Shown: positions 1 to 40,733 of the stretch, one piece after another
Layout of the letters: each line of letters starts with the position of its first letter
How positions within the stretch are numbered: position 1 is the first letter of the stretch
Assembly: GCA_949451605.1 (NCBI GenBank)
Contig: CASTSB010000002.1
Coordinates: 1 to 46,653 of the forward strand
Reading direction: 5' to 3'
Length of the DNA: 46,653 nt
Origin: an uncultured Bacilli bacterium
GTDB lineage: Bacteria > Bacillota_I > Bacilli_A > RF39 > UBA660
Made by a program: the position numbers and the translations under genes
The notes under the pieces: model-generated
Seen by the model: only the letters and a program-made list of their open reading frames with translations
The model's database searches: none
What the model was told of the DNA's origin: nothing

Positions 1-4728
<4,728 letters not shown>

Positions 4729-5528: not shown

Positions 5529-5549
5529 AAAAAAAGTCACTCACGTGAC
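5529..5549 (-). terminator. Intrinsic terminator in rplL-ybxB spacer
   Basis: Minus strand GTCAC-GTGA-GTGAC followed by seven T (5535-5529). It separates the upstream small transcription units from the tandem rpoB-operon promoters. Confidence 0.65.
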
Positions 5550-5864
5550 CGAGTTTTAATAATATTTATTTTTCTATTATCAGTAGAAATATAAATACAC
5601 TTACCATTAAGAGTTTACTTTCTCTCTATAATATTCATATCCTAGTCTCAATGAATTTCACCTTTAAGAATATATATAAGCTTTTAAACCATTTTATAAA
5701 AGATATACAAAAATAGTCATTATTGATATATTTACCAAAAGACAAGTAAGTATACCAAATATATTTACCCAAAGAATGAGCAAATAGAAAAAATAAAATA
5801 AAATTAATAAATTGTATATCATTTTACGTTTTTTAAAGTTCGATGCTTATATCATCTAGAATAC
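5529..5864 (-). ncRNA. Candidate small transcript 2 in rplL-ybxB spacer
   Basis: A stretch of about 335 nt bounded by a consensus promoter and the terminator at 5549-5529, with no recognisable gene. It contains a direct repeat (gatatatttaccaaaag at 5725-5741 and aatatatttacccaaag at 5758-5774, plus strand). One reading frame gives a hydrophobic 42-aa peptide beginning MIYNLLILFYFF, but without a clear ribosome site. A second, better-initiated short frame (AGGTG, 7 nt, TTG) would encode MRLGYEYYREKVNS. T-rich sequence makes hydrophobic frames by chance, so I call a transcript and leave coding open. Confidence 0.4.
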
Positions 5865-5870
5865 ACCCAA

Positions 5871-5899
5871 ATTGTAATATACAAAAAAGAAAAAGTCAA
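5871..5899 (-). promoter_or_regulatory. Promoter of small transcript 2
   Basis: Minus-strand -35 TTGACT (5899-5894), 17-nt spacer, -10 TACAAT (5876-5871). It lies immediately downstream of the terminator of small transcript 1. Confidence 0.55.
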
Positions 5900-5910
5900 T
5901 ATAAATACAC

Positions 5911-5944
5911 AAAAAAAATATACAGCCAATGATAAAACTGTATA
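5911..5944 (-). terminator. Terminator of small transcript 1
   Basis: Minus strand TATACAG (5944-5938), 12-nt loop, CTGTATA (5925-5919), then eight T (5918-5911). Confidence 0.65.
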
Positions 5945-6178
5945 CGGAAAAACATCATTAGGTTTTAACTTTCCTAAATTTCATAAAATGAAATGTTTTT
6001 TTCATACAAACCATCTGATAACTAGTTTGCACTTTGGTTTAGGTTGCTAAAGAGGTTAATCATTATGCTCTCTAGCAATTCATTGCTTGAAGTACCTTCT
6101 TCAAATATTATAACTAATAGGAATGGTAAGATTCTTGTAAATGATTGATAAAAGACTACCAATCTATCATCTATTAGT
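5911..6178 (-). ncRNA. Candidate structured small RNA 1 downstream of rplL
   Basis: A predicted transcript of about 268 nt between a perfect-consensus promoter and an intrinsic terminator. Stems seen on the minus strand, in order: ACTAATAG at the predicted 5' end (6178-6171) with CTATTAGT (6120-6113); TTGAAG-AAGGTA-CTTCAA (6104-6087); AGCAA-TGAA-TTGCT (6087-6074); TTTAG-CAAC-CTAAA (6051-6038); ATTTCAT-TTT-ATGAAAT (5994-5978); then the terminator. The 5' end starting inside a stem is typical of stable small RNAs. It does not match tmRNA, RNase P RNA or 6S RNA as far as I can tell. One frame without an ATG start is open and ends ELLESIMINLFSNLNQSAN, so a short peptide is not fully excluded. Confidence 0.5.
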
Positions 6179-6184
6179 AACTTA

Positions 6185-6214
6185 ATTATAATATTAAAGT
6201 AACAATTATGTCAA
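6185..6214 (-). promoter_or_regulatory. Strong promoter of small RNA 1
   Basis: Perfect -35 TTGACA (6214-6209) and perfect -10 TATAAT (6190-6185) on the minus strand, 18-nt spacer. Predicted start at about 6178. It begins 14 nt past the rplL terminator's T-run. Confidence 0.75.
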
Positions 6215-6227
6215 TAAAAATTAAAAT

Positions 6228-6255
6228 AAAAAAAGAAGTTAAATTACTTAACTTC
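6228..6255 (-). terminator. rplL terminator containing the stop codon
   Basis: Minus strand GAAGTTAA-GTAAT-TTAACTTC followed by T7. The 5' arm is the last sense codons of rplL and the stop TAA lies in the loop/arm junction. Confidence 0.8.
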
Positions 6256-7140: not shown

Positions 7141-7267
7141 CCTTAATCTATTTAAGGATGCCATATAAAAAGTTCTTAGATAATTACCCAAGAACTTTCT
7201 TCAATTTCTATTAAAAGTCCTCGGTAGGATTTACTTTAACACCTACTGTCTATGGCACCAACAAATT
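7141..7267 (-). promoter_or_regulatory. L10 ribosomal protein leader (rplJL 5' UTR)
   Basis: Structured leader between the rplJL promoter and the rplJ ribosome site. The outer stem is minus-strand TGCCATA (7258-7252 region) with TATGGCA near the 3' end. An internal hairpin is AAAGTTCTTGGG with CTAAGAACTTT, and there is a CCTACCGAGGAC segment. This matches the general layout of the Firmicutes L10 leader (a known autoregulatory RNA bound by L10 or the L10-L12 complex). The assignment is by pattern recognition only. Confidence 0.75.
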
Positions 7268-7273
7268 GTCTAT

Positions 7274-29169: not shown

Positions 29170-29404
29170 TCCCTAAAATAAAAAAATATTATGCCATAAG
29201 GACGATAAAGTTCGCGGTACCACCTTATTTCATAATATTTATTACACACTTAATTAAGTTAACGCCTTTATACGTCTTAGCTTACATATCAACTAAGAAG
29301 TTCAGAAGCCATACCAATATATCTTTTATACTTATTTTCACCAAACATAAGCTCTCTTAAATAAAATAATATACTAGCTCTTCATCAAAACATTTAAAAT
29401 GTTA
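29170..29404 (-). promoter_or_regulatory. T-box riboswitch with AUG specifier (metG leader)
   Basis: The minus-strand leader contains the T-box core TGGTACCGCG (29222-29213) within AAGGTGGTACCGCGAAC, and stem I with GATGAAGAGCTAGTA and AGAGAGC. The specifier region GGTATGGCTTCTGAAC has the ATG at 29312-29310, matching methionine. The 3' part can fold either as antiterminator or as the terminator hairpin. Confidence 0.92.
29179..29239 (-). terminator. T-box-controlled terminator of metG
   Basis: Minus strand AATATTATG-AAATAAGG pairs with CCTTATGG-CATAATATT (arms 29239-29223 and 29203-29187), followed by a T-run. It is mutually exclusive with the T-box antiterminator. Confidence 0.8.
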
Positions 29405-40632: not shown

Positions 40633-40644
40633 AATTACCTCAAA

Positions 40645-40725
40645 ATAAAAAGTGCACATGGAAATTGGTCCTTAAGGCTGCTATCTTCCAATCCTGACCT
40701 GGTTCAAACATTTCCATTGCACATG
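40645..40725 (-). ncRNA. ffs: Signal recognition particle RNA, short 4.5S type
   Basis: About 80 nt. The conserved SRP domain is seen on the minus strand: GGTCAGGATTGGAAGATAGC then AGCC, with a GGAA tetraloop, the CAGG/AGCA symmetric loop and flanking ACC/GGAC. The terminal stem pairs GTGCA and ATGGAAAT with ATTTCCAT and TGCAC, and a T-run ends it. No Alu domain is present (B. subtilis scRNA is about 270 nt). The -10 element lies just upstream. Confidence 0.93.
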
Positions 40726-40733
40726 TTAATTTT

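Follow-up and report, generated by a model that had tools for sequence, protein, structure and literature searches.

Two adjacent structured RNAs with covarying intermolecular pairings, predicted to form a heterodimer derived from PGK RNA

The window, the whole stretch of 46,653 nucleotides that we analyzed, carries two structured RNA genes, RNA-A and RNA-B, between rplL and the methyltransferase-rpoB operon. From comparison of relatives, we consider it highly probable that these are separately transcribed paralogues that form a heterodimer and that derive from the single-gene PGK RNA (RF03040). RNA-A would pair with RNA-B by two helices, i (CUUACCAUU/AAUGGUAAG) and X (UUAUAAUAUUUG/UGAAUAUUAUAG), with a loop-loop contact, UUAUCAG/CUGAUAA, in addition. 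The ancestor would have been a single-gene PGK RNA with both loops and an X complementary to itself. After a duplication in the window's clade, one copy would have diverged and X would have lost its self-complementarity, leaving one side of each contact per gene. Sequence comparison documents five features on which this proposal draws: promoter and terminator signals belonging to each gene, co-occurrence of the two genes, covariation between them, palindromes in the single-gene relatives, and a nested phylogeny. Dimer formation in the cell, and its stoichiometry, are what we infer from them.

Two RNA genes between rplL and the methyltransferase-rpoB operon

An earlier note on this DNA had described a stand-alone small RNA of about 268 nt with a perfect TTGACA/TATAAT promoter, a predicted start on the first base of an 8-bp stem, further stem-loops, and an intrinsic terminator. 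All of these are present (Table 1). The promoter is the only 12-of-12 sigma-70 promoter within 16 kb, the predicted start at 6178 is the first base of ACUAAUAG, and the same closing stem, ACUAAUAG/CUAUUAGU, forms the 5' end of RNA-A in most relatives. RNA-A is indeed an independent, terminated, and structured gene, but it appears to be one subunit of two, and the description missed RNA-B, which lies directly downstream on the minus strand (5899-5529, including its promoter). Upstream of RNA-A, rplL (minus strand) ends at 6244 and has a separate terminator at about 6255-6230, the hairpin of which overlaps the rplL stop codon.

Table 1. Positions of the features of RNA-A and RNA-B in the window
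Feature	Position	Strand	Remarks
RNA-A promoter	6185..6214	-	TTGACA 6214-6209, 18-nt spacer, TATAAT 6190-6185; 12/12; homologous promoters in relatives
RNA-A	5911..6178	-	268 nt, predicted start to terminator; covariance model R2 matches
RNA-A closing stem, 5' arm ACUAAUAG	6171..6178	-	3' arm CUAUUAGU at 6120-6113
RNA-A helix i strand CUUACCAUU	6122..6130	-	complementary to RNA-B 5608-5600
RNA-A helix X strand UUAUAAUAUUUG	6102..6113	-	complementary to RNA-B 5637-5626
RNA-A purine-loop hairpin GAAGAAGGUACUUC	6089..6102	-	conserved in alignment A1
RNA-A internal loop with AAUGAU	6055..6067	-	complementary to RNA-A terminator loop AUCAUU
RNA-A hairpin, loop UUAUCAG	6007..6029	-	putative partner of RNA-B loop CUGAUAA
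RNA-A intrinsic terminator	5911..5944	-	7-bp hairpin and T-run
RNA-B promoter	5871..5899	-	TTGACT, 17-nt spacer, TACAAT
RNA-B	5529..5864	-	about 336 nt; core related to PGK RNA (RF03040); R1 match 5550-5658
RNA-B helix X strand UGAAUAUUAUAG	5626..5637	-	complementary to RNA-A helix X strand
RNA-B conserved hairpin GAGAGAAAGUAAACUCUU	5609..5626	-	GAGAAAG hairpin
RNA-B helix i strand AAUGGUAAG	5600..5608	-	complementary to RNA-A helix i strand
RNA-B hairpin, loop CUGAUAA	5571..5589	-	loop near-invariant
RNA-B intrinsic terminator GGUCACGUGAGUGACUUUUUUU	5529..5550	-	terminator signal; also in relatives

Folding of the single sequence gives modest support for structure in RNA-A (minimum free energy -58.7 kcal/mol, against -46.1 in shuffles, sd 4.3; z -2.95). 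Comparison points to it strongly, as about 30 loci share the stems, the promoter, and the terminator. In an alignment of relatives, the UUAUCAG hairpin shows double changes in 8 of its 11 stem pairs around an invariant loop, and no frame on the RNA-A sense strand is both open and conserved; a weighing of synonymous against compensatory change, to exclude a peptide, had been proposed as a check. A further match, between the internal loop and the terminator loop of RNA-A, exceeds permuted partners (z 4.5; 0 of 20,000) and is AAUGA/UCAUU in sequence, becoming AACGA/UCGUU in L089; the window's own pair does not exceed the mean of the permuted ones.

An Rfam search matches RNA-A to no family, as the note had anticipated. 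RNA-B scores 39.8 bits against RF03040 by cmscan, under the cut-off of 50.8, and has a GAGAAAG hairpin (5626-5609) followed by a CUGAUAA hairpin (5589-5571), the order seen in PGK RNA. Of the 12 predicted pairs in its model, 8 have double changes, and with one exception these lie in the stem of the CUGAUAA hairpin. The RNA-B promoter reads TTGACA/TAAAAT in the two nearest relatives. The methyltransferase-rpoB operon that follows has its own promoter, at 5455-5427, downstream of both RNA terminators.

Pairing between RNA-A and RNA-B across relatives

To compare relatives, we fetched 80 loci via the methyltransferase that adjoins rpoB and built covariance models from them (R1 for RNA-B, R2 for RNA-A). 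The spacer from rplL to the methyltransferase ranges from 64 to 3,267 bp among these loci, so the notion that other Bacilli have almost no spacer here is only partly right. Both RNAs occur together in 29 loci, in either order (A-B in the window, L031, L032, and L061; B-A in L043, L055, L076, L080, and others) and in some genomes on opposite strands; with few exceptions, each copy has a good promoter and a good terminator. In the R1 and R2 searches, every RNA-B at the rplL locus with enough flanking sequence has RNA-A adjacent, and compact rplL-methyltransferase spacers have neither. One or two small protein genes sometimes stand alongside the RNA pair.

The R2 search, which covered 23 chosen genomes and the fetched loci, finds RNA-A as a separate gene in 7 of the 23, and in these 7, RNA-B is non-palindromic. 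The two genes lie on opposite strands, and are still complementary, in G184 (L123, L193) and G009 (L129); they are also on opposite strands in G284 and G126. These arrangements indicate that the two RNAs are separate transcripts. As the X of RNA-B in G126 is non-palindromic, we looked there for an RNA-A, and this predicted copy emerged only when the filters were off (30.3 bits, E 1.5e-4), with an X match of 6 bp. No RNA-A was found in G180 by model searches, including one with filters off, and a pattern search for the missing partners in G180 and G126 returned matches only in or beside protein genes. The locus in G055 is cut by a contig end.

Two stretches of RNA-A are complementary, in antiparallel order, to two stretches of RNA-B, giving helix i (such as CUUAUCAU/AUGAUAAG) and helix X (such as AAAAUUACAUU/AAUGUAAUUUU). 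From locus to locus the letters differ but complementarity persists: the pairing is CUUACCGUU/AACGGUAAG in L031, CACGUCA/UGACGUG in L061, and AGUUACAGUCA/UGACUGUAACU in L063, and in L056, the two sides of the pairing are exchanged. Helix i is missing in L053 and L063. Across the 29 loci, native partners exceed permuted ones for both X (z 9.9) and i (z 8.8; 0 of 20,000 permutations each), and the swapped controls stay at chance (A-X with B-i, z -0.4; A-i with B-X, z 0.2). When the loci are aligned without gaps, with conserved bases as anchors, 93.4% of in-register cells pair, as against 35-49% when the register is slid by 1-3 columns. Double compensatory changes are found in 14 of the 18 intermolecular pairs, with 55 double-change cells against 16.2 in shuffles; the covariation shuffles ignore kinship, whereas the slid versions and swapped controls retain it. 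An earlier energy-based test gave the same direction (duplex energy -16.4 for native partners, -11.3 for permuted, sd 0.59). By these comparisons, the best-supported pairings of RNA-A are those predicted with RNA-B.

The hairpin loops also match, UUAUCAG in RNA-A with CUGAUAA in RNA-B, on stems that both covary strongly. In two-gene members, this contact could form, but the loops are nearly invariant there; the covariation that bears on it is confined to single-gene members, in which the contact may be intramolecular. Cofolding of whole molecules at 8 loci did not prefer A:B over A:A, B:B, or mismatched partners.

In many relatives, though not in the window, two small genes (about 124-128 and 83-90 aa) adjoin the RNA pair. 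They lie at 3230-3893 (+) in L056; the spacers of L042, L043, L055, L076, L080, and L089 hold similar genes. The second is WXG100-like by eye, and no Pfam family scores above cut-off for the pair. We rejected the idea that the RNAs are remnants of these genes, as they are found beside them.

Single-gene relatives and the direction of change

B-like cores are found by R1 in 21 of 145 genomes of the family; among 395 genomes sampled from the class, matches fall only in the window's own family (11). Many of these cores are single RNAs that score above the RF03040 cut-off (51.4-96.2 bits). Each carries all the parts together: i, i', the CUGAUAA hairpin, and UUAUCAG in the loop of the terminator. 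In several, the A model and the B model match the same place, which supports common descent of RNA-A and RNA-B. Since many genomes of the family have no detectable copy, the RNAs are probably not essential family-wide.

A homodimer would require an X that matches itself. The single-gene X is mostly a continuous palindrome (UUUACAAUUGUAAA in L137) with differing centres (AAUU, UGCA, GAUC, GCGC, GUAC, and UAUA). The mean palindrome score is 23.1, against 12.4 in shuffles (sd 0.96), over 22 stretches that include one spurious low-scoring match (L132_792); the X of two-gene members scores at chance. About 4 of the 21 single-gene X sequences have weak or interrupted palindromes (L115, L126, L127, and L138). 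Such a palindrome could also fold back on itself into a hairpin with a 4-nt loop. That hairpin would need no self-complementary centre, and it is simpler to suppose that two copies pair with each other. The loop pair covaries as well, in loops picked by hand: CUGACA/UGUCAG in L114, CUAGUAA/UUACUAG in L115, and UGACUG/CAGUCA in L133. With X self-complementary and both loops in one RNA, the single-gene PGK RNA most likely works as a homodimer.

Three tandem single-gene copies lie on the minus strand of L133 (genome G146; 570-665, 1056-1151, and 1501-1596); their palindrome (UAUAUGCAUAUA) is unusual, and their loop pair has changed.

In an RpoB tree, whose root is presumptive with a poorly placed outgroup, the two-gene genomes form one clade together with G126 and G180 (96/91), and the single-gene genomes fall outside it. 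G136, the nearest single-gene genome and the sister of this clade, carries two palindromic copies in tandem, spaced 311 nt apart. The simplest history would be tandem duplication followed by loss of self-pairing. We think it likely, on this evidence, that a structural RNA passed from homodimer to obligate heterodimer in this way, with the palindromic contact split into complementary halves.

The single-gene relatives also sit elsewhere in the genome, such as upstream of hup, or occur in a tandem array of three; the rplL/rpoB neighborhood is therefore weak evidence on function. A growth-linked role, as had been suggested for RNA-A, leans on position and promoter strength, and that position is not fixed in the single-gene relatives.

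Alternative readings and comparison with known RNAs

Antisense regulation, too, can involve a loop contact together with two short stretches of complementarity, and the genes for RNA-A and RNA-B are adjacent. One RNA could thus be a trans-acting regulator and the other its target or sponge, the complementarity being regulatory and not a matter of joint assembly. We consider this unlikely, as the same set of contacts is present inside one RNA in single-gene relatives, elaborate structure is kept in both RNAs, no reading frame is conserved in RNA-A (the RNA that the frame check covered), and the strong promoters of the two look constitutive.

It is less probable still, indeed very improbable, that the two are domains of one long transcript that pair in cis after read-through. 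They are usually close and on the same strand, as this would require, but both orders occur, each has a promoter and a terminator, and in the four genomes named above, the strands are opposite.

Rfam types PGK RNA as 'Cis-reg', and the terminator loop of single-gene members matches a loop farther upstream, as in a leader that switches the next gene through its terminator. We find this hard to credit here, even more so than read-through. The next gene in the window has its own promoter past both terminators, downstream neighbors vary among relatives, L133 has three copies in tandem, and in some loci RNA-B is followed by RNA-A or by a gene on the opposite strand. A degenerate gene or peptide-coding transcript, which the small genes at the site in many relatives might suggest, can be set aside with near certainty, as RNA-A has no conserved open frame, indels change length, the stems covary, and the RNAs adjoin the small genes rather than replace them. 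Split 6S, tmRNA, or RNase P RNA was rejected as an identity, since the window's genome (G000) has all three elsewhere.

Among known systems, PGK RNA itself stands close to the proposed pair. RNA-B shares with it two hairpins, GAGAAAG(N)AAACUC and CUGAUAA, and the GAUAAG strand, but its X is non-palindromic, and RF03040 does not describe its separate partner, RNA-A. The RF03040 model spans 92 nt, about a third of the length of the RNAs that it represents. Rfam types it as cis-regulatory, whereas RNA-B ends in its own terminator and the next gene starts from another promoter. A literature search on PGK RNA gave no match, the original motif paper lying outside its scope, and a dimer or partner may have been noticed earlier.

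OLE, ROOL, and GOLLD are structured bacterial RNAs of largely unknown function that are assembled by covarying intermolecular pairs and kissing loops and are reported as homo-oligomers (PMC12286853); neither 'heterodimer' nor 'hetero-oligomer' appears in the text of that paper. RNA-A and RNA-B resemble them in having intermolecular pairs conserved by covariation (between A and B, or in the self-complementary X of single-gene members), here deduced from sequence alone, but differ in that the subunits come from two different genes. An Rfam search finds no sequence match between these families and RNA-A or RNA-B. We infer that the putative dimer, much as OLE or ROOL, is a stable, constitutively made structural RNA rather than a gene switch.

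Like two-piece tmRNA, the pair would be one functional RNA made of two base-paired chains. The pieces of that tmRNA are cut from a permuted precursor; RNA-A and RNA-B differ in having separate promoters and, at times, opposite strands, and a tmRNA of the genome's own is present. In crRNA:tracrRNA and U4:U6 snRNA, too, two RNAs from separate transcripts function as a base-paired pair, but neither is known as diverged duplicates of a self-pairing RNA; RNA-A and RNA-B differ from them in that no cas genes and no spliceosome are involved.

If true, the history proposed here would be an RNA counterpart of a protein homodimer turned heterodimer of paralogues. Homodimer- and heterodimer-type forms would stand side by side in one bacterial family, with the sister's tandem palindromic copies as a plausible intermediate. 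As the A/B contacts could be broken and restored by point mutation, a transition from homo- to hetero-oligomeric RNA would be directly testable. PGK RNA is filed as a cis-regulatory motif, but the comparison suggests that it is in fact a free-standing RNA with a gene of its own. RNA-A is added as a second RNA, one that has no Rfam entry.

The window holds other RNA elements as well. In the methyltransferase-rpoB leader (window 5413-5371, minus strand), a hairpin and then a T-run stand just past the promoter. Across 26 loci, the arms of this hairpin vary yet stay complementary (GGAGACAACU/AGUUGUCUC, GGCGAAAACU/AGUUUUCGC), with double changes in 4 of 9 pairs, and it is possibly a conserved attenuator of rpoB. 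Known RNAs on the minus strand of the window are an L10 leader (7157-7273), a T-box leader (29195-29397), and the bacterial small SRP RNA (40640-40731).
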